From assembly GCA_921293015.1 (NCBI GenBank), contig OV121087.1:39852630-39916629 (forward strand): a stretch of DNA of 64,000 nt, written 5' to 3'. The translations under genes were made by a program, and so were the position numbers. Below the pieces are notes generated by a model, which was not told the origin of the DNA, made no database searches, and saw only the letters and a program-made list of their open reading frames with translations. Source of the stretch: Phorcus lineatus (Eukaryota > Mollusca > Gastropoda > Trochida > Trochidae). Positions within the stretch are counted from its first letter, which is position 1. Each line of letters opens with the position of its first letter. Of the stretch, positions 17,392 through 63,540 are shown piece after piece.

Positions 17392-18453
17392 ATGTTTTCA
17401 GGGATACCTCCTGTATTCGTGCCAGTTGTCACTAGGGAAGGAACGAATGATGCATTGAATATACAGAAACAATACGGAATGGATTCCCGGGATCTATCAG
17501 ATTTTCGAAATGAATATATGAGAAACATGTTTGGACTCGTCCCCAACAGCATTGATCAGAATCAACTAAATCACAAGTTTATCGGACCTCCGATATTTGA
17601 AAATAATCCATCAGCTAGAAATGGTGGACCTACGACTTCCAAATCCGATCCTTCACCAGGGGGAGACTGTGTGCCCCTGTTGAATGCTGCCGGACCCTCA
17701 AATAATGGTACCGAAGGGAATCGGGTCACAGAAAGTAGTAACTTTGGAAACAAGTCGACTTCCTGTGATGTCTGTGGAGAAATTCTTCATGAAAAAAATA
17801 CACCCCCTCATACTCGATGTAAAGATTGTCAAAAATATTTCAATCATATTACGACATGTTCACCCCCAAAGCCGATCAAATCAGTGGATAAGGTGTACCC
17901 CTGTACTGTATGCGATAAAAAGTTTATCTCTGTTGCAACTTTGAAAACTCATGCCATTATTCATAGTGGGGAAAGGCCCTTTCAGTGTAATTTTTGTGAC
18001 AAGACCTTTGTTTATGAAGGAAATATGAAAACGCACATGCGAACTCATACTGGTGAAAAACCTTTCAAGTGTGACCAATGCGGAAAAAGTTTCTCGCAAT
18101 CAGGCTCTCTGAAAAAACATATCCGCACACACACTGGTGAAAAACCTTTCAAGTGTGAATATTGTGATAAGACATTTGCCTACTCGGAAAATCTAATCCC
18201 GCATCGAAGAACACATACTGGTTTTAAACCTTTTCATTGTACCATTTGTAAAAAGTCTTTTTCGCAACCAGGTTCCTTGAAGTGTCATATTAAGACAATG
18301 CATGATGAGAAAGAAAAGAAAACTGAATCAGGTTTGCCTGAAATTGATCGAAATTTACTTGGAATGGAAAGGAATTTACCCGCAATAAACAATGGTTTGG
18401 ATGAAATGAACAATGAAATGGACACAAAAGATGACATAATTTTGCTGGAGTGA
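17392..18453 (+). CDS. C2H2 zinc-finger protein, 5 fingers (353 aa)
   Basis: Open frame of 353 codons, ATG at 17392 after CAGCC, stop TGA at 18451-18453. Residues 1-120 carry no domain I recognise. Residues 125-156 hold an unusual Cys/His cluster (C-x2-C, then C-x2-C and a further Cys) that is not a classical finger. Five C2H2 fingers lie at about 169-191, 197-219, 225-247, 253-275 and 281-304. They are joined by SGERPF, TGEKPF, TGEKPF and TGFKPF linkers, the arrangement of a sequence-specific nuclear DNA-binding protein. The C-terminal 50 residues are acidic and Asn/Met-rich. AATAAA at 18555-18560 is a plausible polyadenylation signal 100 bases after the stop. No orthologue is named with confidence. 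Confidence 0.93.
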   Translation: MFSGIPPVFVPVVTREGTNDALNIQKQYGMDSRDLSDFRNEYMRNMFGLVPNSIDQNQLNHKFIGPPIFENNPSARNGGPTTSKSDPSPGGDCVPLLNAAGPSNNGTEGNRVTESSNFGNKSTSCDVCGEILHEKNTPPHTRCKDCQKYFNHITTCSPPKPIKSVDKVYPCTVCDKKFISVATLKTHAIIHSGERPFQCNFCDKTFVYEGNMKTHMRTHTGEKPFKCDQCGKSFSQSGSLKKHIRTHTGEKPFKCEYCDKTFAYSENLIPHRRTHTGFKPFHCTICKKSFSQPGSLKCHIKTMHDEKEKKTESGLPEIDRNLLGMERNLPAINNGLDEMNNEMDTKDDIILLE

Positions 18454-32198: not shown

Positions 32199-34110
32199 TA
32201 TAAATTTTAATGTTAATCGGTTTAGTGTACCTCGTGACTGTTGTATGAAAGAAGAGTCAGATTTTGGTAAAAAAAAACGATTAATGCACAGCGGATGCAT
32301 AACTTGCGCAAAATATCAAACCTTAATTTGATTCTGATTCATTCCAAAGCAGAGTTAACAACAGATTTGGGTTGGAATTATTATATAGGTAATAGTACAA
32401 GTATATATGTCAGCTGGTTGTTGATTTCGGCTCCTATACATTTAAACGGCAGTAATGTTTCTCGATTCTAACCTGTATATGTCATGTTCGAACAGCTTTT
32501 AATGAGATTGTATACCAATAAGATTGATATCTTGCCAAAATTCTAGAATACTAAGCAGAGGTGGTATCAAGATAAATATAATTATTTACAGCTGTCCGTA
32601 AGATAAATTAAGTATCCCACAACACAAAAGTTATCACCTTGTTTAGATCGAGTATCTTTACATTTGAGCATAATTTACAGAGATTAAATTGTTTTCTGGC
32701 ACAATTCTACAACAACAAAAATCCATAAGAATGATTGAAACAATAGATTTTTATTTACTTCCCGCAAGCAGATCATTAGGCGGTTGACTCATTTACCTAT
32801 TGTCTTTGGTAAATTATATGTGAAGGATATCTGTAGCCAAACGGAATTAATTTTCTATCGTTACATGATAATGTGCATTTAGCAAGCTTCGATCGTCTTC
32901 AAAGCCTCATCTAATACAATAAGCTATTACGTTAGACCTTCTCTTAAACAAATTGTAATATACTTGTTATGTAAATACCTTTTATTTTAACTGCTAAAAG
33001 ACATATTTTCTCTCTCATTCAAGAAACATTTTCTCATAAAACATCAATCCTGCCATTCATAAGCTCGATATGACATTTTACGTTGAACTATCAGTGTCGA
33101 ACAATAAGATCTAATTGATAGAGTGCACCAAGATGAAAAAATATTGTAATTTTGAAAATAATAAATGTTAGGTTTATGAACGTTACTTTCTCTCATTTTG
33201 TGTAAGAATTAATGACAGACCTACCTCTGTAGGGAGAGAATGTAAACGTTATGGAATTATCGTTTTTGATTTTTAAATTATCACAAAATATGGTTTGATA
33301 AGAGGTAGATTTTTGCTGTATAATTCCTTTTCCGATTCCCCCCCCCCCCCTAATGTTTTAGTTTTCTGAAAAATATCTGTTGATAAGAATTAATTCGTAA
33401 CTTGAATAGAAATATTACACCAATATTAAACGCCTTTTACTTTAAATATTGTGGTAGCAAGTCCTACTCTGGACAGCAACTAGTGCCAGTTTGAGAGCAT
33501 AGGTTGTCAGTCAAATGGTCGGCTTGCGGGAATCAAACGAAGCGAAAGGTTTTGGATTGAAAGACAAAATGCACGTCCAAATCGTGCACACCATATCGCC
33601 GTGAAATGTACAAGGCAAAGTTTTACGGGTAGCTCGTGCAGTCACCGACGTTTTTATGAAGAAGGCATGTCAAAATTTTATCAAGAATGGGATAGAAATA
33701 AAACACATATAATGAACTTTAAAGTTTTGACAATACCTAACAAAAGCTTATTATCTAAAATGAGACTTGAAAGAAATGACATCGCATACAGTTTTTAGAT
33801 TGTTAATGAATAACTCCCTCAATCAATTGTTAATATTCGAAATATGGCATGTATTGTTTGCCATAAATGTTTGTCTGTGTATGAGGTTTTTTAACAAACT
33901 ACCGAAATACAAGTAGACGGTTTTATATTCAATTTTCAAATCGCGCGCTCGATTTTGTCAAATGGTTGACGATATACTTTCGGTTTCTCTTTCGTGGAAA
34001 TCCCGTTAAGGAGCAGGATTTCCCATAATTCAAAAGTCTTCTGTTTTCTCTGCAACTTTTGCTTACTGGTACATCTAATCAGGCAAACAAGGCTCAACAG
34101 AATTGACGAA
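32199..34110. other. non-coding stretch including a poly-C run
   Basis: No supportable gene. A C homopolymer of about 11 lies at 33339-33350. The segment from about 33900 may hold the promoter and leader of the BTB gene. Confidence 0.4.
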
Positions 34111-34742
34111 ATGTCGAAAGACCTGTTTGACCAACCATCCCACCTCTCTGACGCAATATTGATCGTTCAAGGGAAGCGACTCCATGTTAGCAAGACTGTG
34201 CTTTCTTTAGCCTCGCCAGTCTTCGACCGAATGTTCCATGGCGACTTCAAGGAAGGTTCAACCAGCAAAATACCCCTTCCTGGTAAGAAGTACGATGCAG
34301 TTGTGGAGTTTCTGTCCTGCATTTACCCCACTTCAGGTACAACTGTCACTCGGGAGAATATGGACATTGTCTTGCCTCTTGCTGACGAGTACCAAGTGTC
34401 CAGTATTAAAGAGGCTTGTGACACGCTAATAGAAAACCAACAACACCTGAGCTTGTTCATTTCATGCTGGTTGCTGGAAAATATGGACTTCCTAAGTCCT
34501 CGTCGAAATGTTGTGACGTGGCATCCAAAAAAAAGTACAGCGATCTGAACACGGTGAAAGACTTTGAAAGGGTTGACCTAGAGTTGAAGTTTATGGTTGC
34601 GTCCAGCCGTATACAAAGCTATGAGGTCGGTTTAGAAAGACTGGAGTGGCTTCTTTATCAATACGGATATTCGTCTTGTTCAGTTCCGTCAAAGAAAATT
34701 GTCAATGATATAAGGACAAAACTGAACAGTTTCTATAATTAG
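34111..34742 (+). pseudogene. BTB/POZ-domain protein, intronless, frameshifted
   Basis: The ATG at 34111 starts MSKDLFDQ. A BTB fold follows at residues 11 to about 110: LSDAILIV, GKRLHVSKTVLSLASPVF and LPGKKYDAVVEFLSCIYP, the usual order of the protein-interaction BTB domain of Cul3 adaptors and BATH-type proteins. At about 34455-34463 the frame breaks. The first frame runs on to a stop at 34546-34548, while the family-like continuation (MLVAGKYGLP...) is in the next frame from 34464 to the stop at 34740-34742. One indel, real or a sequencing error, explains this. There is no intron; AATAAA occurs at 34781-34786. It could be a retrocopy. The longer upstream frame from 33994 lacks support. 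Confidence 0.75.
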
Positions 34743-37412: not shown

Positions 37413-38056
37413 AACTCCAGATGCAAAAGTCTGTTTCCAAAGGCTGATTTTACAACACTTCATTTTTCATTCACCAATTGTAAAACGTAATTTATAGCAT
37501 TGCTAAATGTGTATATCCCTCGTATTTGAAATACAAAAATGAGTTTCGACTTTGACATTTCTAGAATTACATTTGAACTTTGTAAAGTTGAGAACAGAAA
37601 GTTGAGTTTTACAGGATTGAAATGTTAGGTTTGCATACTTGGACTTGTCTTTTCGAGAATTGCATGGTTGAGAACAACATGTTACAACTTGCGAATTACG
37701 AGTTTACATGATTTCATTTTTGGCACACATCCCCTTCCATACAGATGTGATATGGTATCTTCATCATGAATATGCCGGAATATTTTAAGAGGAGCGAATA
37801 ATTTTTCAGTTGAGGCACATAGTGAGATTTCCAAAATGAAAATAACAGTGACGACTTCAAATCAGTGAACATTGGAAGAAAATATTTATAACTTGATATT
37901 GTAATATTTTTCCTTATCTAGATACCTCTGCTTTTGGTTTATCATTTATCACGCCTTTTGCATATAATGCAATATTCATAGTCAGCGCTGGATAATGAAA
38001 TAAATTTGCCATGATAATACATATAATGTTAACTCAGTCACTATTTGCCCACTTAC

Positions 38057-38230
38057 GAGTTGACAAATTGATGAGATCTCCTCCCAGGCGCTGATCTTCT
38101 TTTTGTTAGTCCTCTGGCAACCGTCGAGCTTGCCGAAGAGGAGGGTCTCACGCTTGTTGACTTCCTCAACTAAGATCACCTCCTCTTCGCGGGTCCAATT
38201 TGATCTTCTTTTTTTCTCGTCATTTGCCAT
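38057..38230 (-). CDS. Myb/SANT-like DNA-binding domain, first exon only
   Basis: The ATG at 38230 opens 58 codons ending at a strong donor (CTC|GTAAGT, exon end 38057). The peptide (NWTREEEVILVEEVNKR ... LLFGKLDG ... SAWEEIS) has the spaced tryptophans W12 and W49 and the acidic first helix of the Myb/SANT-like domain. That domain is found in NAIF1-type proteins and in the partner protein of Harbinger transposons. No following exon is recognisable between here and the foldback element, so the gene is either split by insertions, continues far to the left, or is a fragment. A G+C-richer stretch upstream (38240-38330) could be its promoter. Confidence 0.6.
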
Positions 38231-38622
38231 TTTTACTCGTATCAAGCAGACGACAGCCGAGCGCGTGCCGTGTTGACAAACAAACCAACATTTCTGTTTC
38301 CGTCGACAGGAGAGTTCCATTCCTACCGTAAGGACTCTAAAATTCGCCGTGACTTGTTTTAAGCATCAATTTCTCGTGTTTGCAACAGCTTAGCAGGTGC
38401 TTGTAGGTAAATATTCGACTCAAATACTGAAGAGTTACAGGACATGATTACTTCGTTCTGAAATCACTATGGTAACTGTCTTAGTCTCAGTCTTAGCTAA
38501 GATTTTGCTTAAACAGTTTCGTGATCCAGTCTTATCTAAAGTCTTAGCTAAGTAAATTTTGTAGACTTAAGATTTTTTTTGCTTAGCAAATTTTAGACTT
38601 AAGATTTTTCATGATCCCGGGG

Positions 38623-38706: not shown

Positions 38707-40089
38707 ATGAACCCTGAGGGGATTTCTAAGGGGCACAAAGGGTCAAACAATGACCTTGTACCCAAGCAGAGAAACTTGCCCGTAGAGGCAAGTACGTCTA
38801 GCGCTTCTAAAGTGCCGAACGATCACGTAGATGATCCGGGCATTCCTGACCCTCTAAACAATCAAAGATCGGATCCAGGTAAAAGTAAGAGTAAAGGTGA
38901 TTACAAAATACCTAAGCCCAAACGTGTCAGAAAGAATGCACGTAGATAGCGAATCTACAGATTCGGATTCAAGTTTAGAGTCCCACAGTGATTCTGACGA
39001 CTCTCACGATTCAGATTGGTAAGATATTGAACCGTCTCAAAACAATGATAAAGTTAAGAATCCTCTGACTGAGAGAGATTTAGATGAAAATCAAAAATCA
39101 AATTTCAACAATTATGTCCCGTTTTCTCTGGCAGACTCGCATGACCCCACAGCATGGTCTTTGCCTGTTCATCTAGCCAATCAGGTGTCCACTAACTTCA
39201 CTCAATTTTGCTCTGATAAGAAGTTAGATGAGGGAATTCTTGAGGATTTCCCAGTTCCGGACGAACCTTCTCTCCATACCCTGCTATCGATCCATATGTT
39301 GACGATCTTTTCGCTGCTAAAGGGAAAACTCTTGAGAAAAAGTATGACTATGCACAACAATTCATACAAAATCCCATTTTGAATGCTATGGGACCCCTCT
39401 GTAACATGTGGCATAACCTTGACAATATTCGTTGGGGTGTCTGCCCACCCGACATTGATATTTTTGAGCTCTTGAGTCTGTTTGAAAAGACAGTTTGTCT
39501 GCTTGGGCAAGCCAATGTCTCCAATAATTACAACAGGAGGTTAAGCTTTCTGACAAAATTGACCAAAGATGCTAAGCAGGCTAAACGTCTAGTTCTCAAA
39601 CATGAAAAGAGTTTTTCTCATTCAGAGGGTAAACTTTTCGGTGAGAAATTTTATGACACCCTACTGAACGAGTCTAAGCATAAGTCAAAGGCTCGGGACA
39701 TTTTTTATGCCGAAAGACGTTCAACCAAGAAGACGTTAAAAAAGAAACCCACTTTCACTGTTTCTAGACCTGATGAGCAGCCTTTTCCGCAGGGGCCCTC
39801 GGAATCAAGGAAACTTGTGGGGGCAGGTTCAACATCAAGGCTTCCTTTGGAAGAGGTGGTTTCCGTGGCAACTCTTCCAGAGGCAGAGGTCAAACCAGAC
39901 ACAACAGGAAAAACAGCTACTCTAGGTGGGTCAAATGCAGTCTTAGACTTTTCCCACACAATACCTCAACCTCCTCGGTCACTGCTATCACTCCAAATTT
40001 TGCCAGAAATTCAAGAGCTAGATCTAGAACATATATTGGTGAAAAAAACGTTTGTGGGAGGAAGAATAAGTATGTTCAGTCAAAATTAG
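38707..40089 (+). pseudogene. gag-like region of the DIRS-like element (broken)
   Basis: Pieces in shifting frames. First comes an 81-codon frame from 38707 with basic KPKRVRKNARR ending in TAG at 38947. Then an Asp/Ser-rich stretch with a TAA at 39020, a segment with WSLPVHLANQV, and a longer open piece 39379-40089 carrying GPLCNMWHNLDNI and an NNYNRRLSFL-like helix. These match the general layout of DIRS gag proteins: acidic-Ser stretch, then a helical region with an L-G-x-A motif, then an Arg/Gly-rich tail, here in another frame around 39850-39920. At least three frame changes separate the parts. Confidence 0.7.
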
Positions 40090-40167
40090 CAAAAGATCAG
40101 TTCAGATCCTTGGATCTTACAAACAGTAACATGTTTCGATTTCAAGTTTCTCAGAAAACCTCCCTCA

Positions 40168-41961
40168 ATGAAATACCATCAACCCAAATTGTCAAGAGCA
40201 GATCAGTTAGTATTAAACGAGGAAGTTCAGGCAATGTTCCAGAAACAAGTGATAGAACTTGTTCCTCCTTCTCAGTTACAAGACCAGGACCAGTTCCTAA
40301 GCCCTCTGTTTGTAGTCCCCAAAAAGGGGGGAGGGCAAAGACCTATCATAAATCTGAAAACATTGAATGTACACATACCCTACGAGCATTTCAAGATGGA
40401 GGGCCTTTACCTGCTGAGGGATCTCCTTCACAAAGGCGATTTCATGATCAAACTGGATCTTTCAGAAGCGTACTTCAGCGTTCCGGTAGCCTCATATCTG
40501 AGGAAGTTTCTCCGTTTCAAGTGGAAGGGTACTATGTACCAGTTCAGATGTTTGCCCTTCGGTCTTGCCCCAGCCCCAAGAGCCTTCACAAAACTGCTCT
40601 GATTAGTGGTGAGTCTAGCTCGTCGGGCTGGAATTCGTCTGATCATATACTTGGACGACATTATTTGCTTCACAGAATCCCTAGAACTTCTTGTTCAACA
40701 CAGGGACACACTGCTCTTTCTCCTCCAAGTTTTGGGCTTTGTGATCATTTGGAAGAAATCAGTTCTGTCTCCAACACAGTCAATTACTTTCCTGGGGTTT
40801 CTAGTGGATTCGAACTCTCTTACACTGACCCTACCACAAGACAAAGTGGACAACATTATCTCAATATGCCGTCTTTTCCTGAAGAAAAGACAAGTAAAGA
40901 TCAGACACTTAGCAAGTCTGATAGGCAAACTGACAGCTTCCATGCGGGCAGTCATCCCAGCCCAGTTACATTGTCGTTACCTACAGATGCAATCAAGCCG
41001 AGAGCTGATGAGATCACAAAGTTATGGAGCAAAGATAATGCTACCAACCCCTTGTCAAAAGGAGCTGGAATGGTGGGTGAACAACCTGTCCAATTTCAAT
41101 GGGAAACCAATCTTTGTTACTCACCCGGACTTAACGTTACAGACAGATGCGTCAAAGATGGGGTGGGATGCAATCTGCGGAACATCATCAACAGGCGGAC
41201 GATGGTCAGAAGAGGAGCAGACCATGCATATAAACGCACTGGAATTGAAGGCAGTGTTCTTAGCCCTTCTAAACTTTTGCAAAGACAGGAAGAACAAAGC
41301 GATACTTGTTCAGGTAGACAATATAACAGCAATGTCATACATAAATCGCCTGGGCGGCACCAAATCACAAACCCTGATTCAGATCACCAAGCAGATCTGG
41401 GAGTTCTGTTTCCTGAACAAACTTTCTCTCACAGCTGTGTACCTGCCAGGGATAGAGAACAATCATGCAGACTGGGAGTCTCGCCACTTTCTGGATTCAA
41501 GCGATTGGAAAACTGAACCAAGTCATGTTCTCACAGTGCAACAAGACGCTAGGTCCATTCACAATAGATCTATTTGCGTCGAGACTGAGCTTCCAGCTGA
41601 AACCATTTTGCAGCTGGGAACCAAACCCCCTTGTAATCTGGACAGATGCATTCCAAATTCTTTGGAACAAGGGGATACCTTATGCCTTTCCCCCTTTCTC
41701 ACTGTTAGGCAGATGCCTCTGGAAGGTAAGGAGGGAGAGGGCCGAGTTAGTGCTGGTAGCACCAGTCTGGCAAAGCCAAGCCTGTGACTTACTGTGACTG
41801 TGACTGTGGCGGTGACTTACCCAATCCTCCTGCCTCAGACAGACAACTTGCTGAGTTCCCCTCAGAACCTCCTGCACCCACTAGTAGAAAACAAAAGTCA
41901 TCTTCTAGCGGTCTGTAGGGCTTCAGGGAAGGAGTCAAGACAAGAGGAGTTTCGAATGTAA
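40168..41961 (+). pseudogene. reverse transcriptase-RNase H of the DIRS-like element (broken)
   Basis: RT motifs in one frame: LSPLFVVPKKGGGQRPI, then DLSEAYF, then LPFGLAPAPRAFTKL. A TGA stop follows at 40600-40602. The same frame then continues with IRLIIYLDDII (the YLDD catalytic pair) and FLGFLVD. RNase H motifs follow: TDASKMGWDA, HINALELKAV, LVQVDNITAMSYINR and NNHADWESR (D, E, D and D positions present). At about 41505 an extra A in a run shifts the frame; the continuation (IDLFASRL, YAFPPFSLLGRCL, LVLVAPVW) lies in the next frame to about 41797. A short TGACTG repeat (about 41790-41812) interrupts again. The C-terminus (PILLPQTDNLL...) returns to the first frame and ends with TAA at 41959-41961. 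Confidence 0.88.
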
Positions 41962-42869
41962 CAGCTAAACTCCTCACCAATCAATGGGGACCAGGTACAC
42001 AAGGCGCTTACAATGCTTCCTGGAACAGGTGGACTAGCTGGTGCGATGAAAGGGGTATTAATTCCTTTTCAGCACCTTTGGAGTCTATCCTAGATTTCCT
42101 CTCCTTCCTGTACAGCAATAATTTTAAGTACAGGACTATCAAGACAGCCAGGTCAGCACTTTCTGCCTTTCACCCTTCAGTTGAAGGTTTTACCGTGGGT
42201 CAACATCCTTTGATTAAGAAACTGATGACAGGAATCTTCAATCAGATTCCCCCTCAACCAAGGTATACTTCTATATGGGAGGTAGACAAAGTCCTGAACT
42301 ACCTAAAAACCCTACCTCCAAATACACTGCTTTCGGACAAGATTTTGTCTGAGAAACTAGCCATGCTACTCATGCTAACATCAGCTAGTCGCTCTTCAGA
42401 ACTGACGTCTCTAGACACGGGTCACATGCTGGACATGGGTGAGGAGATAGTGTTCAATCTTGTCAAACCTACCAAGGTGACAAAGAGTGGGTTCAAACCC
42501 CCTTCACTATCTTTCAGAACCAACAACCACGACCAAACAATTTGTGTGGTAAATTGTCTTCGAGTTTATCTAAAGAGGACAACCCCTTTGAGAGACTTAA
42601 ACAGATCAAGACTTCTTTTGAGTTTTGTCAATCCTCATAAACCTGTTGCACCAGCGACAGTTGCTAGATGGGTAACTGATGTCATGAGTGCAGCAGGAAT
42701 TGACACATCTCTCTACAAAGCCCACTCGGTTCGAGGCGCTGGTACCTCAAAGGCTTTCTCAAAAGGAGCTTCTGTAGCAGAAATTCTGAAGCTGTGAAAT
42801 TGGACCAATGCACCCACGTTCAGGAAATTCTATTTAAGAACTACTACAGACAGCAATCATTGTATCTAA
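41919..42869 (+). pseudogene. tyrosine recombinase of the DIRS-like element (broken)
   Basis: Open after a TAG at 41916-41918, overlapping the RT end by about 40 bases in another frame. The N-terminal core-binding part has ASWNRWTSWCDERG. The catalytic part has the first Arg in LTSASRSSEL, then HSVRGAGTS (the H-x2-R box). A TGA at 42795-42797 cuts the frame just before NWTNAPTFRKFYLR, which contains the expected nucleophilic Tyr (codon 42831-42833). The frame then ends at TAA 42867-42869. So all catalytic positions are recognisable, but the copy is truncated by one nonsense change. The first ATG is at 42078; the true start in an intact relative is probably further upstream. Confidence 0.85.
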
Positions 42870-49343: not shown

Positions 49344-52300
49344 TCAAGCGCTAGGCAAGTCCACTTCACAAATGTAGGGGTGTGGTTCGTCGCAGTCGAT
49401 ATCGCCCCATTCGTAGTTACTGTCGGAGTACTGCAGCAAGAGACAGTCTTGGTCGTCGCCCACGTTGTTTGGCTGACCTCTGTGCCAATCACTGTACGCG
49501 CTCACATAGGGCGTGCCTGAATCTGTCCAATCAAAATGATGCTCTGATCTTTCGTCATTTCCACTTGTAAACCAGCCATTTTCTCCGCTCGTTGAGAGTA
49601 CTGTTGAAGAAAGAAACGAACGAATTGACTTGAGGATTTAAGATGTTAATATGTATCGGTTGAGTAAGTGGTTCCTTGAATACGTCAATTTATAAAGTTG
49701 ATTTTTGTGCAGAAAAAATATTTAATTATATTAATAAAATCTAATGCATACCTCCCTTGTGCATTTCCGCCACATGTAAAATGTCTCAAATGCATTACGA
49801 CAAATGTCGCCTACAGTGGAAGCAAATTGGATGTACCTCATCTTCACAACGTCAAGGCCGAAACGAAAAGATTTCGAACTCTTTCCGCTTCTCCCTTGAC
49901 ATCACGGCCCACATTTTCTGTGCTTAGAGTTTAGTCTACAGCAGGCCTTTCTGATTGGCCAATCAGATGGCGGCTTTCAAAATGAACTTCAAATGTCAAC
50001 GGCAAAGAGCGGTAGAGACCTGTCGCTTTTGAAGAGGAGACTATTTTAAATATTAATTACAAATGTAATATCAGGCATATATTTAGATGGATACAGGGTA
50101 GATCTATAACACGTTTGAGGTCGATCGATATTTACCGTAGAGTTTGTAAAGTTTAAAAGTAACGTAAATACGAAATTATTGTACGAATGGAATTTTTAAA
50201 AATTCATTATGTCAAGTTTTGAATGTTTCTAATAGAAACAAAATTATCGCCAAATATTCGTTGTCAAACCTTATGTAATGGCGACATCGTTTTGTGCTAT
50301 GTTTGAGTAAAACGATGAGGTTTACTCATATTCTGAACACCGAAAGATGGGATGTGTGAAACTTGATAAAATATATATTGACTGCAAAACGGGGAATTAT
50401 TTGCATTTCAAGTGAGTGAATGAGCTGGAGTTTAACGTGCATAGAACAATATTTCAGTTATTAATGAAAATACGACCCCATGTGATTTAATGGTTAGAAA
50501 TTAATTCATGGTGCTGTCAGTGAATACCTGAAAATAATCCATCTGACTAAAGTATAATATGAAATTTTCGCTTGGATTTTCTTTATCATAAGGTCTCAAG
50601 GCTGGGCGTAGGTTTCGAATGTAAACGGTGATTTCATTGGCTGCAGGTTAGCAGCTAGTAAGGGCGGTAACTCTGTAATGACAATAGGTGTCGCTGCTTC
50701 GTATCACAGGTTTTGTCACCGATGAGGGCAAGGTAGAAAATGGATGGAGTCTATCTCGATACATTTTCAACTTGCCGTGGGAAGATGGATGTACCTATGC
50801 AATTGGTTAAAAGGGAAAATAAACCTTTTGAACCAGGTTAAAAAACACACACCTCAAACACACACCTGAGATGTGTGCTTTCCGATTGCGCTCACAATGA
50901 ACCTTTTTTCATTGAAGTTTCACGGTCGGATGTACCGATGCCAAATTCCAAAACAATTCCAGGAAACAAAACTTGATAGTCTTGACATCATCCACAAAGA
51001 AAGTTTAAAAGTTTGATTTATCAAAGCAAAACAGTCACAAGAAAAAAGGTCATGGAAACCATTCAAAGTGAGTTTCTACAAAGGATGTACTGATGCAAAA
51101 TTTTCCAAGGTAAATAAGTCTCCTGTGGCCAGGTAAAACACACCTATGTCCTTCTTGATTGCCTCTACAATGAAGTCTTGTTCTTCCTTAGAGTTGACCG
51201 ACACGAGGTGGGATGTAGATCCAGCTTTACGACACGCCAAACTGCTCTTGTACCAGTCCAGGGGCTTGGTGTGGAAGGTGTAACAAGACACGGACGAGTT
51301 GCTGTGTCTAGTTATGGCGTCTTGCGGACATGCCGGTATAGCTGCAAGAATTGGAATGATTGTTGAAACAGTCAGATAATTATTTGTTGACTTTGGCCAT
51401 TATTTACAATTTTTAAATCAATGCAAGGTGTCGCAAGAAAAGGACGAGTTGCTGCGTCTCATGATGGCATCTTGCTGACATGCCGGTATAGCTGCATGAA
51501 TTGGAATGATTGTTGAAATAGTCAGATATTCATTTGTTGACATTGGCCACTATTTACATCAGTTGAAGGTGTAGCAAGAAACGGACGAGGGGCTGTGTCT
51601 CATGATGGCGTCTTGCGGACATGTTGGTACAGCTGCAGGAATTAATGTATATTGTTTGAAACAGTCTTAAATATCTTGATGACATTGGCCTAGAGGCACT
51701 ATTGACAATGTTTGTGATACATGCAAGGCGTGGCAAGACTCTGACGTCTTGTGGTCTTGCACATTGTTGGTGCAGCTGCAAAAATTGAAATATATCTTTT
51801 GATAGATTCAGATATTCATTTGATGACATTCGCCGTAAGACACTGTTGAATGTTAATATCAATGGAGGGTGTAGCAAGACACAGGCGGTTTGCTGTTTTT
51901 AAAGATGGCGTCATGCGGACATGCTGATACAACTGCAAGAATTAACTATTAAATTGCACAAGTCTGATAATTATTATAATACATTGGCCTTTAAGACACA
52001 AATGACTTTTTTCATATCAATAGACGGAATAGAACGATACGGACGAGTTGATGTGTCAAATGCTGCTTACAGTATAGAAGTTCTGGTAATGTCTAATAGC
52101 GATCATGATGTCAAGATTTGCTATAGGGAAGCCATAGAAATACTACAGTACTGTAGCATTGTTCTCATAATATCATATGAGAAAGTATATTGGCCCAAAT
52201 TCATCTTTTGAAAAGAACGTTATAGTGCCTTTAAATCAGATCTGTTTGCTTTTTTCATAAGTTCAAATTTCTCTTTTAGAAATATTGATTTGTATTTTTC

Positions 52301-55300
52301 AAAATATGTTCTTACTTTTACAAGTTGTGTTGTAGAAGTATACATCGTCGATGGCCATGTCAGCATTGTAGTCGCGAGGTACATACAGCCGAGTTCTTGA
52401 ATCTCTGTAGGTATAAGCGTCGTGATTCCCTTCGAATACAATCTGTAAATTCAATAAGTTCAGGGTTCCGTTATATATTTAGGATTTCATATTGTTAATT
52501 TACAGCCAAGCTGGGTTTTGTTTTGCCTTCAAACTGTAAGGTGCTATTTCAATCTAGTTAAAACTAGCTGTAATGATCCGTAATAACGGACTTCGGGACG
52601 AATTATATTACAACTAGTTTTAACTAGATTTGGTGCTATTTCTTATGGTTTTTATCAACATCACACGTAACTATAAAATAAAAAATCAAATATCTTGTCA
52701 CAATCGATCTCACGTAACTGTTGAACAGAACGTTTATGCTGCAAACAATCTTTTGTCGGTTTTGATTTGTTTTTATCCGCTATCCATTTAATGACATGAA
52801 TCGTTTAATGTGTCTCATAGAAATTGCTTTCCCAAAAAATTTCTTTAAAAAACCCAGACAATTGAACACGACCGTAGTTACATCTTTAGCGACGGATGCA
52901 TGCCTTTGCTTCCCCATTGCATGTTTACTTTAAAGCGATATCGAGTTGCGCTAGCCTGCTTATGCTAAATTTTTTAATAATCTCTCTTTCAAAGGCGAAA
53001 TTTGTAACTCAAAATGCTAATTAAGATGGATAAGTCCAGGCAGCGTATATATCTCTACAATGGAAAAATAATTGGAAGAAAGCTCATATCAATCGTGGTT
53101 CAATTGAGAAGATAGTGAAAGGTACCAAATAATTACAACGATTTAAGAAAGGATTAAAAAGGAGAGTCCGACATTCCTGTTTTTCCATATATACTATTAT
53201 CATCAGTTTTAGAAGTTAGGGGGTCTAAAAAGAAATATACCACTGGCGCTTTAAATTAACGTCTAGCTACACACCGTAACCGCCCTTTTCAATATTGTCA
53301 ATGTGAATTCTTAGCAAAAGATCATTCACATCACCGGTCAAGAAAGGAACATATATCATCCAACTAAATCAGGCTTTTACTATCCGCAAAACAATGATTG
53401 CCTGTAGCTGATACATTATTGCTTATTACGGGCACTTAGATAGACAAAAGGTGGCGAGACAACTAAGGGTACTGTAGGTGCCTTTTGGTGTAAGAACTCT
53501 GATTTGAAAGGATTGAGCGGAATGATTACAAAATACAGGAATTTCAACGTTTAGTATACGAAATTCCATGATCATGGGTACAAGACTTACACGGAATTGT
53601 GACCCTGTGTACTCCGAGTCCAAACCTATCTCTGCAAGATGCCATTCTTCTTTCTGGTTGCCATGGGTACTCCAGACAGGGTAACCACGCCCAGAACCGA
53701 CCTACATGATAAGGAGCGTGTATAGAGCTGCATGCATACCGTAAGTTTGTTAACTTATCACTGAAGTGCAAATATAATGAAAATTGGGCTTAAGACGTCA
53801 ATAAAATAACTGACAAAGAACCACCTATTGTCCATGCGTGAAATAGCCATGCTCGAACTTATTTTAAGATCGTCTTTTCTCTCCCGCAAATATTAAAATT
53901 TTGGCATGCTGAAATAGACAGAAGGGCTCATATTTTCAAAATTTCGATTTCGTTAAATTTCATATGAATGTTCCATACCGACTATCAGAGAATAAAATCA
54001 GCTCATGCACATAAACGGTAGTGCAAAGGAAAAAACATGACTAATATCTTAAGCTTTTGATAACTTTTAAAGGATTTTGTAAAGAAAAATATAAATTATT
54101 GTTTTTGAAAATTTTAACCTCCGTCACATCAATGACCTGGCAAAATTGTTACGAGTAATTGTGTGATATAATAAACATTTGCGAAAAAAATGGATCGGCA
54201 TATCCGTATCAAAGCTTCAACTTTATAAGTCACTTTTTCGCAATCAATGCATCCAAAATTACATGATATTTGCACTAGTATATCAAGGTATGTGAACAAA
54301 CTTATGGTATGCAGCTGTACTAGACTGTAAATTTGTCACCAATTCAAACCTACCTTTATACAGTTACGAGCATATTTTTTTTTATAAATCCTACATACTC
54401 TCATATCTGCTATCGTCACCCCAAGGATAACCTATACTTGCGCCAGCTCAAATAATTTCCTAAGTTTCCTAACTTTTTCTGTGCTTGCCGTCCAGACTAC
54501 TGCAAAGGATCTCGATTATGCACTGAAAAATCGTTTGATAAAAATCATAGATACAGAAGTTTTATATTTTATGTTAATATAGTAAGCGTTATATTTTTCA
54601 GGTTATTTTGTATATCAAATCTTGTTTATAAAACCTTATAAACGCTTTGGAAGACATTAAAGAAATCCAGTAAGTCTACAAAAATATGCTAGTGTTTCTA
54701 CTATACAAATGAAATTTTTATATATGCTGAGAGGCTAATTCGTACTAGAAATACAATAAAACTAACATATAATTACTAACTCCAAAAAGATTATTCACTC
54801 AGTTTAATTCTACTTTTTTTCCTTCCTAATTTATGAAAACAAAATTATATCAAGAATTTTACTTAAGAACGAGAGTGATGTTTTGTTAAAGTCTGATAAT
54901 CAACGAGTCCTAGTTGACTCTTTTCATGGAAATTATCTTTTAACATTTCATTCCATTGAAATACACTAAAATAGTATTTTAGCATTTTCTGCTTTTGTGG
55001 TTTTCCTTAAGATATCACTGAAAAGTATTATAAAAATCAGATACCGTTTATTAAAAGAGAAATTATAAAATTGCAAATGTGCCCGTGATATTTATGACAC
55101 AGGTTATGTTTACCATTTGGGTAATGTGCATCAATATCAATTTACTTACCATCGCATAAACCTTTAAGGTCTTCATATTCACTCCGTTCATATTGTACCA
55201 GAACCGAATGCAATAATTAGGAGCCGGTTGCAATGCTAATGACGTCATTCTTGCAAAATGGCTTTCTTGCTGTTGGGTAGCCCCGGATTTTCCATTAAGA

Positions 55301-58300
55301 TACATATAGTGGCCTGCAAGAAAAATAGATATGAAATCGATATGAAAGTGGTAAATATAGAGAAAAACTTTCTTTTTGATCATAATCCCTCGATAACTGG
55401 TTGTGAATATCTTAATCTGATATTTTGAAGACAATACAACGGTTGTTGCCAAAAGGCGACCAAGGATAATGTTGTTTGCACAGCGTCACAACCAACCTTA
55501 GTCACAATCAACTTTAATCACATATGTCATCGCTACGAATTACAATTTCTATATTTTCCAAAGAAGGAGATTAGTTACTGATTATCCTGGTTTTGAATCA
55601 AACGCTGTTTCTAAAATTCGAGAAAAGAATGAAACTCTGAACACGTGCTGTACTCGATAAACCGCTTTTCAGAATTAAAATTGTCCACCTTTTTATCAGA
55701 TGTCAAATCAATAGAATTTACCCATTGCCATACAAGTTCTAGTTTTCATTATGAGTAACACCGTTACTGCCTTATTACAAAGTAAACCATGCATAGTAAT
55801 TGACAGCATGGCCTGCTAGGAATTATTTTGTTGCATTCCCAATATCTTACTAAATCAAGCTTTGTTGCTTATCGCAAAACTTCCATACACGTTCTTTAGC
55901 CTATTCTACCTGAGCTTGACAGTCCTATCATGAGGTTACTTTTTCTCGCAGATGATAAATGTTTGCGTCATGCAGTAAGGTTTTACTCAACAAGTGCTGG
56001 AGACTGGTGCGAGCTATGTCACACGGCGGAAGTTGTATAAACGACGGATGCTATTACCGGTAGGGGATCCATACGAGTGATCCTCCCTGGGTCCAGTAGT
56101 CGTTGATATGGATCCGTGTCCCTGGATCCAGTCAATGTCCTCTGTTCTATCCTGTACGAAGCCACACGTCATGTCAGGGGCCTCGAAGGAACAATAGATC
56201 AGCTTCACTGGGTCGTCTGGATCTAAAAATAGTAGGTGTTTAAATAGCTTTGTGAAAATAGTAATAACAGCCGTCTACTCTTGCAAAAGCATTCAACGGT
56301 TGGTCGCGATTGATTATTTTATTACGTCACCAGAATCAAGGACCGACACATGTCAAACATTCGAGCAACTCAACGATTCCCGAATGTCCTATAATAAAGT
56401 TAGACTTATCAAAATAGAACTTTAAACCATACACTTTCTAAAAGACGTTCATCTTAAACACGTAGATAACGTTTAAAATGCAGACTTTCAAAGCTTGATA
56501 CTGACTGGATTCTATATCGATATACTAGATCCAAGTTTATCATTATAGTTTTCGAAATATCGGAACACATGCCAAGACATTTAGAACGTCATTTAACAAG
56601 TTAACACAAGTGCACTTATGATATATACGAAACTATACAGACAAAAAAAATCACGTCACCGTCATCTGCATGACATCGACGTAGCATGAAATAACCAAGT
56701 GCCAATGTAGTGTACGGTTACTAATATTGCTTGGTAAACTTACTCTGCACGGGGTGGGTTAATCCTTGAAGCAGGCCTAGATTACCCTTACAGGTGTTGA
56801 CGTCACGTGTTCGGTTCGCCACTTCCTGTGCCAACACGTCCATGGTGTCCCTGCTCGCAACGGCTATGTGGTTCATCTCAGATTGAGATGTGTTGGTTTC
56901 CTCTGCAAGACGAGCCGAATAAGCATCAATGGCTTCTATTTCTGCTTTTACTTGTTCCAATTCTGAGTTTGTGGTATTTATTTCGGCTTCCTTGAGAGCA
57001 ATGGCTTTCAAAAGTTCCTTCTCGAAGTCCGTGGCATTTGAAAAGTCCATGCCACTAAGATCAATAGCCTGTGTGGTTATGTTAAGGTGATGTTCTATCC
57101 CGTCGATCTTTTTGCCTATTCCGTTTACGATCATTTTCATTTGGAGGTACTGCATCTGGAATGATTACCAAAGTACAGCTGCATACCGAAAGTTTGTTCA
57201 CTTACCACTGAATCGTAGTGTAAATATCATGTAATTTGGGTTTCGTTTAAACGTCAATAGAATAACTTCAGACTGACTATTTATCACCCACTGCCCATGT
57301 GTAAAATAGCCATTCTTGAACTCATTTTGAGATCGTCTGGTCTCTCGTGCAAAAATTCGAATTTTGGCATATTGATATAGACAGAAGGGGTCACATTTTC
57401 GAAATTTCGATTTCGTTAAATGTCAAATAAAATGCTCCATATATCGACTCTTTGAGATTAAAACCAACATAATCACATTGAATTTGTGCTGAGAAACAAA
57501 CGTGACTAACTTTTAAAGAAGTTGATAAATCATAAAGGATTTTATGGAGAAAAATAAAAATGAGTGTTCTCGACATTTTGACCCCTGGTCACTTCAATGA
57601 TCTGCCAAAACTGTTACGGGTAATTGTGGGGTACGTAAGACATTTGCCTTAAAGAAGAATAGATCTGCATATGTGTAATGAAAAATCAATTTTATACGTT
57701 TCTTTTTCGCAACGCTACGATACCTCAAAGGCATCTCAAATTACATGATATTTGCACTAGTATATACAGGTATGTGAACAAATTTTTGGCATGAAGCTGT
57801 ACGGAAAATGCTGGATGGTTGAATTTGTTCTCTAACAAGGGCCACAGAGGCCACATCCTAAAAACTTACTATCATCATCAAGAGGCCTTGAAACCTGAAT
57901 ATTTAGCTGACAGTGACCACACCCTAAAACATGTTTTCATCTTCTCCAGTGGCAAAAGGCCGAGAAAGTTGAAACTTTGTGTTCAGACTACTTAGCTGAC
58001 GGGGATTCTAATTTATAGATTAGGTGACTCTGTGGCCCCCAATAAGGGCCACCCGCTAAAATCTATTTTCATCTTCTTCTCCGGATGCAGGAGGCCTAGA
58101 AAGCTGAAACCATGTGTTAATTAAGACTCCTAAGCATACAGTTGCCACGCCCTTAAATCGTCTCAAAAAGCAAGAGGCCTAGAAAAATGTTAAGTTGTGT
58201 ACAGTCTTATTATAGTTATAGAATAGGTGACCCTGTGACCTCTTATAGGGACACCGAATCTAACAATTAGAATCCTCATCAACAGAGGAGTCTGTTTACA

Positions 58301-58726
58301 AGGTTTAAGTTTTCTTTCTCTTTTGCTTCTGGAGAGATTAATGAAACTTGGTTTTAAGGAAATGGTCTCTATGGCCCTTTTTAGTGGTCACAGGGTACCC
58401 AAATTTTTTTGACTTTCATATAAACTATCAAAAAGGTACAATGTTTACTCTTGTATAAAAACCGTGGTCACTACGTTCTGAAATATGATTGTGATGTTGA
58501 TGATTGTATAGTTCTCCAAGAAATGTATATAATTTACGAAAAATCTAAAACCTTGATCATATAATAAACTACACACCTCCATGTGGTCACAACAGGGCGT
58601 CACATCTTCAATAGCGTCATGTCCCCGGCATTGGTCAACCACGACATTGTACTCGCACTGACCATATGTGGACCCAATGCTGGACAGCGTTAAGAAAATG
58701 ATGATAGATGGAGCAAGTTTTTTCAT
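49344..58726 (-). CDS. secreted coiled-coil + MAM + C-type lectin protein (8 exons, ~527 aa)
   Basis: Exons (minus strand): 58726-58577, 57155-56744, 56222-56058, 55313-55150, 53701-53591, 52442-52316, 51341-51144, 49600-49344 (stop TGA). All borders are AG/GT, and the phases (0,1,1,0,0,1,1) join into one frame. Residues 1-22 are a signal peptide, followed by a Cys-rich segment with a CC pair. Residues 51-187 are a coiled coil with N-glycosylation sites. Residues ~190-375 are a MAM domain (IYCSFE, TGPREDHSYG, NYCIRFWYNM, EWHLAEI, MAIDDVYFYNTTC). Residues ~380-527 are a C-type lectin domain (CYTF, HLVSVNSKEEQDF, GWFTSGND, QPNN, DQDCLLLQYS, EWGDIDC, PYICE). Its QPN and WGD motifs differ from canonical EPN/QPD and WND, so calcium-dependent sugar binding is uncertain. 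An ATG six codons upstream (58744) is an alternative start. A role in extracellular recognition or adhesion is inferred. Confidence 0.88.
50000..51060. other. intron 7 interior of the MAM-lectin gene
   Basis: Between the two lectin exons (intron 49601-51143). No exon, repeat family or open frame that I can support. Confidence 0.45.
51418..51931 (-). repeat. four tandem partial copies of the first lectin exon's start
   Basis: Units begin (minus strand) at 51931, 51775, 51632 and 51491, then the real exon at 51341: spacing of 141-156 bases. Each repeats the intron end with its CAG acceptor and the first ~70 bases of the exon. Three of the four (51931-51859, 51632-51559, 51491-51418) stay in the frame of the real exon for about 24 codons (ACP..DAI...SCYT pattern) and stop at the same TGA. 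The unit at 51775 is degraded. They lack the rest of the lectin exon and its donor. Confidence 0.8.
52554..52627. repeat. miniature inverted repeat, TAGTTAAAACTGGCTGTA family, copy 2
   Basis: CTAGTTAAAACTAGCTGTAA at the left is mirrored by TTACAACTAGTTTTAACTAG at the right. It is related to 14505-14561. It lies in intron 5 of the MAM-lectin gene. An 11-base GGTGCTATTTC occurs on both sides a few bases away. Confidence 0.65.
53721..54319. mobile_element. mariner-like MITE, copy 1 (intron 4 of the minus gene)
   Basis: About 600 bp, similar over its length to 57174-57801. Ends are GAGCTGCATGCATACCGTAA... and ...CTTATGGTATGCAGCTGTA, inverted copies of each other. No coding capacity. Confidence 0.65.
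57174..57801. mobile_element. mariner-like MITE, copy 2 (intron 1 of the minus gene)
   Basis: 628 bp with inverted ends TACAGCTGCATACCGAAAGT and ...TTTTTGGCATGAAGCTGTA, about 30 bases each. TA at both borders fits TA-targeted (Tc1/mariner) insertion. It starts only 17 bases upstream of the splice acceptor of exon 2, so its end may contribute to that intron's branch region. Confidence 0.7.
57833..58420. repeat. diverged ~130-base tandem repeat (about four units)
   Basis: Recurring GAGGCCTAGAAAGCTGAAAC, TTAGCTGACGGGGATTCTAA, GGTGACTCTGTGGCC, AGGGCCACCCGCTAAAA and TTTTCATCTTCTCC motifs in the same order. The same unit occurs at 46690-46895. It lies in intron 1 of the minus gene. Confidence 0.65.
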
Positions 58727-58744
58727 CCTGTCCGTAAATATCAT

Positions 58745-59073
58745 CGCAAGGTTGATATTATTTCTTTGAGACTGTTTAGGAAAGTATTTTTCTGCATGCG
58801 TTGCTAAGTAGTGATAATTGGCTTAACTTTTGTCAAACCCGACCCACATTTACGAAAAGATCAAGTTGTGGATATCAATGAGGCAGACTGTCCTTCTTCG
58901 TGAAATATGCATTTACCCCGGAAACTAAAACATTTCCTTCCTAAATGGCGTCAATAAGAACACACAACGTATTTGTTTCATGATAACCTACGTACATATC
59001 TCCTGGCAGCCAAAACATCTCCGAAACCGACCCAGCTTCAGCAGACTCTGAGAAATATTATATTGTTGTCAAG
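58745..59073. promoter_or_regulatory. shared intergenic region of two divergent MAM genes
   Basis: Only about 330 bases separate the start codons of the minus gene (58726 or 58744) and the plus gene (59074). Both promoters must lie here or overlap the leaders, so bidirectional or coordinated transcription is likely. I see no clear TATA box or CpG-rich core. Confidence 0.55.
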
Positions 59074-62000
59074 ATGTTGCTCTTGCTTGGGTTATTGCTT
59101 CTCTTCAACCTGTATGTTTGCGACCCTAGTTGCAGCTTTAAGAACAAAAACTGCCTTTACAACGTCAAACTAGGGCCAGGAGATGGATGTGAAGCAAAAG
59201 TGGCGTCAGACACGGCGGATAGTTTGTCCTGTTGCGGAGACCTTGGTGTGAGTAATGATATTACCAAATAATTTTGTATAGTCATTTTTTGTATACCAAT
59301 AAGTTGGACATATATACTGTGAGGCTGTATATCATGATCAATCTCTTTTTAGGATGTATGTTTTTGCTATCTATGTACGGCTGCACTCCAAGAAGGTTTT
59401 AAACATATCTGTGTTTCTCGGCGAAATATTGTTTCGCACACTGGACAGCTGCATTTAGTGGGTATGTTCACATTAGTGCTTTCCATAGTGCAAATATTAT
59501 GTAGTTTTTTTATGTCTTTATTGCATCGTGACTAATCGAAAATGAAACTGATGATGTAGCGTTTTCGCTTCAGCAGTAACGATTCAATGAACCATGATAT
59601 AGTCCAATTCCAATTCTCATGATTGAATGTAATGCTTCTGACAACTCATTAAAGTGACCAGGGGTCAAAACCTATAGTTTTACTTGTCCTTTACTAAATT
59701 AAATTATCTACATCGTCAAACATAATCATATATTTTCTTAAAAGTTCAATCATATTCTGATGATAATTTAATAAATTTGGAAAGTTTTGATCCAAAATAA
59801 AGGAAAATGAAAATTGAAAAATTGGACCCTTTATGTGAAAAATACGAAAACTTGCACCGCTGACCTGACGATAATACGATTGGCCTGAGAATGATTAATG
59901 GTGATGGTCAAAGGATGATCTTAGGTTAGGCTATGAAATTGACGCAGAAAAAAATAAAATTTTCTGATATTTGCACTAAGATATACCAATTGGTGAACAA
60001 ACTTTCGGGATGCAACTGTAAATGACAATGTTAAGTGTCGTGCTTAAAACTTAACTTGTACATATATATATTTTTCGAACAAGGAGAGATGTAAGGTGAA
60101 ATAAGAAGATAATGTCAATTGATGTAGTGCGTTTTAATAATCTTTAAAATCTCCTTGGAAATACAACGTTTATCCAACAGTAATAATGATTTATTTCTGG
60201 CTCTCGTCCCACTTAATTGCTTAATTTGACAACTCAAATTTCATTTAAAAAAATTTTAAAAACTAAAATTTCGAAATGTGATTTTCTTGTTCCTCAATTA
60301 TGCTAAATTCTATTAAAGATCACATGCTATAATGTTCAATCAGTAATTTACTGAAAGAATTTCCTTGATCTGTTGAAAGTGAACACCGAACAGTGAAGCT
60401 GGCATCCAAAATACCTTTCTGTAATATATTGAAGTTATTTGGACAAACTTCTTGGATGCAGTTATAGAATCTCAATACATCAGTATCTGATTATATCATC
60501 GTCTATAGGCAGACCCAACTTGAAATAACTGTTTAGAATAAAATCAAGTATTACTGCACTCCATTACGCAGATTATACACGCGTTATGTGGCGGAGCATT
60601 TCATTTTAATGAGATTGCCATCGATGCAATTTGACATTTTAGCGGGCTTCCTTTTGTTAGAAGTTATGGAAGGTGAAAGGTCAAGAAAGCCACCAGACGC
60701 GATCGCTATCGAGCAGTTCAGATCTTAAACGCATCGACGAAAGAGTGAGAGAATGTCCTTCTGGTTTCAATGAGATTGATTGTCATCAGACGAAAAAGAT
60801 TATTCAACATACAAACTGAAAAAAATTACAGCCACAGTGCTATCAAACTGGGCATATTAGACATGTTATTTTCATATTTCCAGTGTCGAACCATTGGTTA
60901 AGATAACCAATTTTCATTTCAGGCCAACGTTCAAGATCTTCAAAACAAAATCAATCAATATGCAAGTAAAGTGTCTGCAATGCATGATGATACAAAGGAT
61001 AAACCAATTGGACATCAGTCAACATCTCCTCCGACAGCCAATGAACAACGCCTCATGGACATCCTGGCTCAGAAAGAGGCTGAGTTAAAAACCAGCCAAT
61101 CACTTCTCGCCCAGAAGAAACTTGTTTTGGTCTCGGTGACATCTAACCTCTTAGAAAAACAGAGAATCGCAAACCGAACAAAGGAAATTCTTGCCCAGAT
61201 TGCTTCACATTCACAGGAGGAGATCCGGCAAATGAAGGACAAACTAGCTAACGTGACCAGAGACTTGGACAACTGCAACGGTGTATTGGCTCTCAAACAG
61301 GGAAAGATAAACTTCACCCATGGTAAGGACTTAAACTTTATAATACAATAGTGATAGTTACTTTATTTATCAATGCCAGTCAAGAACTTAGATAAAAGTG
61401 ATAAAGATTTTTCACCTCCTCGCATTATTTACAATACATTTGAGACGTAATATAAACAAAGACATCAACCATGTGTTATTTAAAGCCCAAGCAAAGGCTT
61501 CTCTTATTCAAATTAAACGATACAGTGTGTAGTACATGACCTATCTGTTAGTTGAATGGATAAACTACATCGTGCCCTTTATTTTGTAAGACAAGCGAGA
61601 CAGAGTGTTTCAAGGGTACATCTAGCAAAGGACAACATGGAGGTTAAAACGTTTTAAAAGATGTTATTTTAAAAACCATATCAGTTGTATTTTTGTAAAT
61701 ATTTGTTAAAATAATTTTTCGTGCGCTAATTGTAGACTTGCAGCTTTCACTTACAACAGAAGCTAGGCGTGAAGCAACATAATGCAGTTTTAGGCTCATT
61801 TACAGTCCATTCAAACTCATTGACTAGAATTAGAATTTGATTAGAATGAAAACTTAAACAAAAATCTACCCTAGGTAATCTAAAGGCATTTAGAAATAAT
61901 ATACATAAGGGAAACCAAATTAATGTAAATCATATATTTAAAATTAATCAATAAGTGATAATAAATTTTTTTCAACAAGGGACACAAGAAACCCCATTCA

Positions 62001-63540
62001 ACGTAACATACTGTCATTTCGAGGATCCCAAAGAGTCTTGTTTTAAGCAGGACACGAATGATGGGGCCGAGTGGTTCAAGATGGCGGGGGCTCCAAGTAC
62101 AAACACGGGGCCAAGGGAGGACCATACCTATGGCAGTCCAAAAGGTTAATAACTCTCATTTTCTTCTCATCCCGCTTCTGCGGAGCTTTCTTACAGCTTG
62201 TTGTTTATGGTCGAGAAAATATTGTAGTATGAACACACATGTGAATTGAGCCACACCAAATAGTTTGTTGTGTCAACAATTTGTTGTGACAAGTGTCACG
62301 TCTGATTGACACATTCTGCGTAAACATATTGTGAAAGTTGAAAATCTTACCGAACCCTTCTCGTGAGAATATCAACACATCCTAAAATGTTAAGCACCCA
62401 AAATTCAAATCGAATGTCTTCAATAGTCAAACGAATGGATGCTTTTATATCTTCATTGACGCCTTTTTTAAAAGTGATCTTTCGACAGGCCTTAAGTTAT
62501 TTCCGTATGCTTCCGGGAAAAAAACTAAACTGTATTCGATTGCGAAATATGCAATTTGAGTCTTCTTTATTGAACTGAACTGAACTGAACTGAACTGAAC
62601 CATTGCATAGGCCTCGGTGACAACAAAGTTATCCATGCATGCGGTGTTTCCATTGGCCGATTTATATTGCGAGATAGTTTTGGTTGGAATTTTATGCCAT
62701 TAGGGGAACCTACCGGAAGCCCGAGAAGAGCACGTATTACAACAGACCTTAGTTTAGGAATTAATAAAGCTGTGGAAAAAGAATGAATATATTGAAAGTT
62801 GTGTATTCTAATTGATCTTTGATATACTATTGTGGTAATAACGTTGTCAAGTGTTTGCATTGTAAAGCCAACGTGTCGAAAAGTAATTCTTCCAATAAGT
62901 ATCCCATAAACGAGATCACCTATTTTAGTTTATGGTCGTAATTAAACTGTACATATTTTTAAAAAATAGTCAAAAAGTAAACAGAATTCGTTTAACTGTA
63001 TATTTATTTTGTGAAGGTTTTTACATGGCTATCAACCCCTCACAATCAATAACCTCACGAGATCCGTCATCGAAACTTGCCCGGATGACGTCAGAGGTAT
63101 TTCCATTTGCTCCGAACTACTGCATCCGCTTTTGGTACAACATGTTTGGAACTGACATTAAGACAATGAACGTCTATGCAAAGGTTTGTGATATCCTTTC
63201 GTCATGCGTAATTATTCAAATGTACGACGTTACTGTCTTGTGCAGACAGCACCATAAGTTTTAATGGCCTCTACCTCCGCGTCAGAAAGGTACATGAACC
63301 ATTCACTTTTCAGTAGCTTTTTTACATAAAAAAACATATGGGCCAAGTATAAATCGTATTATTTAAAAGGATCTTTATCATTTATTATAACATGTCACAA
63401 TGTAACATATGCATCGTTAAATTTGGCAGGTCGGGAAAGGGTTTGGCTACCCTATATGGACAAATCAGCGCAACCATGGACAAGATTGGCACCTGGGAGA
63501 GGTCGAGATCGATTCTGAATATACAAGAAAAGGGTTTCAG
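59074..63540 (+). CDS. secreted coiled-coil + MAM protein, paralogue (5 exons visible, 3' end outside window)
   Basis: Exons: 59074-59247 (donor GTGAGT), 60923-61322, 61980-62144, 63017-63183, 63430-63540 (donor GTACAT). Phases 0,1,1,0,0 equal those of the divergent neighbour; exons 3 and 5 have identical lengths (165 and 111 nt). Residues 1-16 are a Leu-rich signal peptide. A Cys-rich segment follows with a CC pair (LSCCGDLG), then about 130 residues of coiled coil (QKEAELKTSQSLLAQKK). The MAM domain has TYCHFEDP, TGPREDHTYGSPKG, NYCIRFWYNMFG and DWHLGEVEIDSEYT. The last MAM exon (AIDDV...C) and any lectin domain would lie beyond 64000. The donor of exon 3 (GTTAAT) is weak. A role in extracellular recognition is inferred from the domains. 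Confidence 0.85.
59446..60020. mobile_element. mariner-like MITE, copy 3 (intron 1 of the plus gene, inverted or diverged)
   Basis: The left end CAGCTGCATTTAGTGGG, followed by TATGTTCAC, and the right end GGTGAACAAACTTTCGGGAT then GCAACTGTA match the family ends of 57174-57801. The interior GACCAGGGGTCAAAA at about 59657 matches its interior in inverse orientation. More diverged than the other two copies. A further short fragment of the same end occurs near 60440-60470. Confidence 0.5.
62571..62600. repeat. (TGAAC)n microsatellite
   Basis: Six tandem TGAAC units inside intron 3 of the plus MAM gene, directly after an A+T-rich stretch. Confidence 0.8.

Follow-up and report, generated by a model that had tools for sequence, protein, structure and literature searches.

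Gene organisation of the locus

The window, by which we mean the whole 64,000-nucleotide stretch of DNA analysed here (C12:39852630-39916629, within a 957.8-Mb, 74-contig genome), contains two divergent genes whose start codons lie 329 bp apart, close to the spacing of about 330 bp given in an earlier sequence-only reading. The minus gene is complete, its eight coding exons joining into a single open frame of 533 aa, and all seven of its introns are GT-AG, with phases of 0,1,1,0,0,1,1 after exons 1-7. The plus gene is truncated by the window edge and continues in the genome to window-scale position 67481, which gives a full copy of 534 aa with a C-terminal C-type lectin-like domain (CTLD) and the same phases as the minus gene; its exons 6-8 were located by tblastn with the window proteins on the sequence to the right of the window. 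No base was altered in any gene model. The features are as follows.

58744-58577, minus strand: minus gene exon 1, signal-like N-terminus (from hydropathy) and Cys segment with a CC pair
57155-56744, minus strand: minus gene exon 2, long helix (coil) with a conserved Cys at its end
56222-56058, minus strand: minus gene exon 3, start of the MAM domain
55313-55150, minus strand: minus gene exon 4, MAM
53701-53591, minus strand: minus gene exon 5, MAM
52442-52316, minus strand: minus gene exon 6, end of MAM
51341-51144, minus strand: minus gene exon 7, first part of the CTLD
49600-49344, minus strand: minus gene exon 8, second part of the CTLD with the QPN/Q/WGD loop, and the stop codon
58745-59073, no strand: intergenic gap between the start codons, 329 bp, candidate shared promoter
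59074-59247, plus strand: plus gene exon 1, signal-like N-terminus and Cys segment with a CC pair
60923-61322, plus strand: plus gene exon 2, coil with a conserved Cys at its end
61980-62144, plus strand: plus gene exon 3, start of MAM
63017-63183, plus strand: plus gene exon 4, MAM
63430-63540, plus strand: plus gene exon 5, MAM, the last exon inside the window
65479-65611 (window scale, past the window edge), plus strand: plus gene exon 6, end of MAM
65915-66112 (window scale, past the window edge), plus strand: plus gene exon 7, CTLD
67225-67481 (window scale, past the window edge), plus strand: plus gene exon 8, CTLD

The earlier reading had noted a common exon order, shared exon lengths of 165 and 111 nt and common splice phases; all seven phases are the same, and lengths of 198 and 257 nt are also shared by the two genes. 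It had ascribed a lectin domain to the minus gene, which does end in a CTLD, and had proposed a search past position 64000 for a lectin exon in the plus gene. That search returned CTLD exons at 65915-66112 and 67225-67481, and the domain is therefore a property of both genes. The 329 bp gap was scanned for six motif types against shuffled sequence and none stood out: counts on the plus/minus strands (shuffle mean for both strands in brackets) were 0/0 for TATA (1.02), 0/0 for kB (0.02), 0/0 for ISRE (0.02), 1/1 for STAT (0.62), 0/1 for C/EBP (0.52) and 2/0 for GATA (1.08), the STAT count probably representing one site since the pattern is palindromic. One dispersed repeat has copies in introns of both genes (53809-54321, 57272-57802 and 59947-60021, with pieces 68-88% alike). 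About six decayed tandem copies of the junction between intron 6 and exon 7 of the minus gene, spaced 141-159 bp apart and each carrying the first ~70 nt of the CTLD exon, lie at 51272-52057 and could possibly serve as decoy splice acceptors.

The head-to-head pair is real, but it is more than a pair: it belongs to a cluster of three genes, with a fourth copy on contig C25. Gene3 lies on the minus strand tail-to-tail with the plus gene (window-scale 75626-69660, 506 aa) and has a GC-AG intron 2 and six GT-AG introns. Gene4, on its separate contig (C25:23295487-23302578), encodes 443 aa with the same phases as the cluster genes, and contains a short coil with Cys and a Thr/Ser-rich stretch, without the Cys segment; its intron 4 is GC-AG, and its exons 1 and 2, chosen by frame, splice signals and phase rather than similarity, are its least certain. 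All four genes have eight coding exons and identical phases at the seven introns (26 of 28 introns GT-AG, 2 of 28 GC-AG), and matches between the four genes coincide with exons. Since four genes at two places share the same seven phases, and matches fall on exons, we regard the observation as more than chance.

A genome search with the minus protein gave one further place with both MAM and CTLD, that on C25 (81 of 241 candidates scored). Among the matches listed, MAM and CTLD occur within 50 kb of each other only at the C12 cluster and the C25 place, and the closest pair elsewhere is separated by 296,792 bp, the lists being lower bounds (150 of 243 MAM candidates scored, plus the C25 MAM match, and 150 of 591 CTLD candidates). 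These data bear on the explanation that exons of separate genes or of pseudogenes have been joined, making the architecture an artefact. The exons of a single gene are spread over 6.0-9.4 kb and the models are known from genomic sequence alone, as this explanation would have it; however, four genes at two places keep the exon order, the seven phases and open frames, and the next MAM-CTLD distance among the listed matches is far larger, which leaves it very improbable.

Across 102,000 bases (the window and 38 kb rightward) there was no match to the four proteins at E <= 0.01 outside the three cluster genes. The N-terminal part of gene3, used as a genome query, gave six matches: five fall within the three cluster genes, and the sixth, a weak one on C13 (E 0.015), lies in a 694-codon open frame. 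Two head-to-head CTLD genes lie ~42-48 kb to the left of the window (stretch L046, 3447-3851 on the minus strand and 4738-5154 on the plus strand), with 25-32% identity to the family CTLD. Each has its CTLD in one unbroken frame, whereas that of the four-gene family is interrupted by a phase-1 intron, and L046 contains no MAM or coil match to the family.

Domain content and the lectin loop

The Pfam check that had been proposed on the spliced proteins placed both domains above the curated cut-offs in all four genes: MAM (PF00629) scored 102.8, 100.7, 114.2 and 97.3 bits against a cut-off of 26.4, and Lectin_C (PF00059) 62, 64.2, 61.5 and 54.2 bits against 22.6. The MAM profile match ends at position 141 or 142 of 158 in the plus gene and gene4. 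In the minus protein, MAM occupies residues 204-381 (E 2.1e-29) and Lectin_C residues 410-527 (E 1e-16), with no other Pfam domain above cut-off and two NCBIfam matches that both fall far under theirs; the full plus protein gave E 9.8e-29 and 2.2e-17, respectively. The MAM pattern includes four conserved cysteines, and four are aligned in all four genes; six are aligned in the CTLD of all four, which fits the conserved cysteine pattern of the long form of this domain. The nearest solved domains by sequence are the CTLDs of CLEC4C (E 3.3e-16) and Mincle and the MAM of MDGA1 (E 1.8e-13), vertebrate proteins with other overall architectures, and among solved structures an SR-C-like MAM ranked second against the family profile.

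A single-chain model of the minus gene exon 2 product, built on an alignment of two sequences, is helical at residues 43-129 (87 residues); its pLDDT averages 80.1, with blocks of 91-97 between residues 51 and 120. By a home-made score, the best heptad pattern was equalled by 8, 5, 0 and 39 of 300 shuffles in the minus gene, plus gene, gene3 and gene4, respectively, the last value leaving the pattern in gene4 without support. The Cys at the coil end is kept in all four genes and the N-terminal Cys segment in three. A PDB search with the N-terminal part of the plus gene gave two matches (E 0.45 and 0.96); the family N-terminus may resemble the clustering region of angiopoietin. N-terminal 10-residue hydropathy maxima are 2.48-3.28, consistent with a predicted signal peptide as judged by hydrophobicity, and later 19-residue maxima are 0.61-0.83. 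No membrane-like stretch occurs past residue 30, the 19-residue mean never exceeding 0.83, which speaks against a membrane receptor. Gene models, Pfam matches, the exon-2 helix model and N-terminal hydropathy are in agreement with the secreted coil/MAM/CTLD architecture previously predicted.

Textbook CTLDs hold calcium at five positions, which include an EPN or QPD motif, a following Glu and WND. CLEC4C has EPN/E/WND, whereas the family has QPN/Q/WGD: in the alignment the E of EPN is replaced by Q, the following E by Q and the N of WND by G, with the same letters in all four genes. None of the four genes carries the combination of EPN or QPD, following Glu and WND expected of a calcium-dependent C-type lectin, and we take three of the five calcium positions to be altered in every one. 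Since these three positions are changed throughout, classical calcium-dependent sugar binding by these CTLDs is doubtful, and they may still bind sugar. Of the stretches measured, the putative binding loop (QPN to CEV) is the most highly conserved: 22 of its 38 columns are invariant across the four genes, compared with 36 of 105 elsewhere in the CTLD and 44 of 184 in MAM. An identical QPN/Q/WGD loop suggests a fixed type of ligand, whose binding may not need calcium, and not a hypervariable repertoire.

The loop bears on two alternatives to a secreted binding protein. One is a structural or adhesive protein of matrix or mucus, in which the coil and MAM would build a polymer and the CTLD would contact another protein without affinity for calcium or sugar. 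Adhesion is an established function of MAM and the calcium positions are altered in all four genes, in accordance with a protein of this kind, but the strong conservation of the putative binding loop fits a ligand site, although a protein contact would fit it equally; we consider a matrix role possible, if on the unlikely side. The other is a recognition protein acting in reproduction or development, such as one of the egg coat or of gamete recognition. MAM and CTLD both occur in proteins of this type; however, their binding part is often fast-changing and here the loop is kept, making this an improbable alternative.

Divergence and history of the four copies

We counted divergence with our own Nei-Gojobori implementation over six gene pairs per domain. 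Synonymous differences (pS) were 0.63-0.89 over the coil, MAM and whole CTLD, with 15 of the 18 pairwise values beyond correction, whereas nonsynonymous differences were 0.35-0.44 for MAM, 0.23-0.37 for the CTLD and 0.44-0.61 for the coil, which is the fastest-changing part and also the one with the least certain alignment. Because synonymous sites are near saturation while nonsynonymous differences are lower, we infer that the four copies are old and that MAM and CTLD are constrained, as in old working genes.

The local inverted duplication previously proposed as the origin of the pair is not supported: the saturation of synonymous sites in coil, MAM and CTLD rules out a recent event, and an old inverted duplication is possible. 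Moreover, the trees disagree on which genes are sisters. The minus and plus genes group together with MAM alone (74/72) and the whole protein (68/76), and the minus gene groups with gene3 in the CTLD tree (61/59) and in the MAM tree with outgroups (65/81); no grouping among the three cluster genes is well supported. The domain slices were cut by position, and in a few of them the MAM/CTLD border is misplaced by some residues. With three MAM units from an array on contig C37 as outgroup, the four genes form one group in the MAM tree (97/94). Within this ~105-kb array of MAM exons lies a single open frame of 3563 codons (C37:11421676-11432364, minus strand, stretches L054 and L055). It accounts for 18 of the listed MAM matches, and the Cys-rich segments separating them resemble LDL-receptor class A repeats by eye.

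Proposed function and related proteins

Recognition in molluscs depends on large sets of secreted lectins. We give an even chance to the reading that the four genes form a small family of old origin and encode secreted, lectin-like binding proteins made of several chains, and by analogy a role in innate recognition is probable. In favour of this reading are the gene models and phases, the Pfam domains, the helix at residues 43-129, hydropathy, the comparison of pS with pN and the conserved loop, with shrimp MjCC-CL and MjSRC as precedents; against it stand the three loop departures from the CLEC4C calcium site and the short coil of gene4. Chains would join via the coil and be locked by the kept coil-end Cys and the N-terminal Cys segment, MAM would add side-by-side contacts, and outward-facing CTLDs would attach with avidity to their target, a glycan or a protein, such that coating or clumping of particles in haemolymph or mucus could amount to innate recognition. 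A more specific proposal is that, in an unnamed molluscan family, the lectin head lost the classical calcium site, keeps its fixed QPN/Q/WGD loop through old duplications, binds one conserved ligand and acts as a disulfide-linked multivalent opsonin or agglutinin; we put this forward tentatively, as somewhat unlikely in full. A single chain that combines coil, MAM and lectin head is a clear, testable multivalent design, and a strictly kept loop off the calcium pattern would point to an unusual ligand.

The sequence-only reading knew no family name for this architecture, and the open-access papers examined, as far as their text was available, gave no description or name of the order signal, Cys segment, coil, MAM, CTLD. 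MAM and CTLD in one protein do not appear in the accessible text of PMC4769524, PMC5549309, PMC5460417, PMC12867482, PMC7006211, PMC12261956, PMC6733828 or PMC4053784, nor in that of PMC5222524, PMC5433772, PMC5645147, PMC9848320 or PMC10140915; the available part of an astacin review does list both among the extra domains of astacins as a group (PMC9848320). Unnamed predicted proteins of the same layout are likely to be present in mollusc databases.

Several described proteins share part of the design, as judged from the accessible portions of the papers. Shrimp MjCC-CL, a secreted invertebrate lectin with signal peptide, coiled coil and CTLD, offers a precedent for the combination of coil and CTLD, but is from an arthropod and is set apart by its description only, in which MAM is not named (PMC5645147). 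The Biomphalaria CREPs of the VIgL family are likewise molluscan, multi-domain proteins with a C-terminal CTLD, but are defined by an N-terminal Ig-fold domain (PMC5433772); Pfam scans of the four proteins gave no Ig domain, which rules out CREP membership. In the shrimp scavenger receptor C, MjSRC, a MAM domain serves recognition by binding the microbe, and trimers depend on MAM/CCP; unlike the family, it has CCP domains and a transmembrane region, and coil and CTLD are not named (PMC5222524). A bivalve survey describes lineage-specific CTLD combinations as common in these molluscs, a likeness to the present genes, and the partner domains named are WSC, sushi, scavenger receptor, apextrin, immunoglobulin and CUB, with MAM and coiled coil absent from the main text as available (PMC10140915). 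Since such lineage-specific lectin combinations are common in molluscs according to that survey (PMC10140915), the genes add a family rather than a new principle: no published name for this combination of known parts emerged from the papers examined, and the design is a variant of the secreted multi-domain lectin.

Elsewhere in the window there are two C2H2 zinc-finger frames, a BTB exon and a Myb/SANT-like exon (11077-12453, minus strand; 17380-18450, plus; 33970-34545, plus; 37985-38365, minus). Overlapping long frames at 39244-42794, one of which has a weak phage-integrase-like match (E 7e-4) that falls short of the curated cut-off, are probably a retroelement with a tyrosine recombinase. 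The window's own contig also carries two haemocyanin loci (C12:7646582-7661095 and 16557773-16572398), which support a molluscan origin of the DNA. The haemocyanin domain PF14830, which we take to be molluscan, gave no match in 14 control genomes, which are not stated to be animals. Each locus has eight PF14830 matches (16 in total), and one haemocyanin unit matches solved haemocyanins, including keyhole-limpet KLH1.
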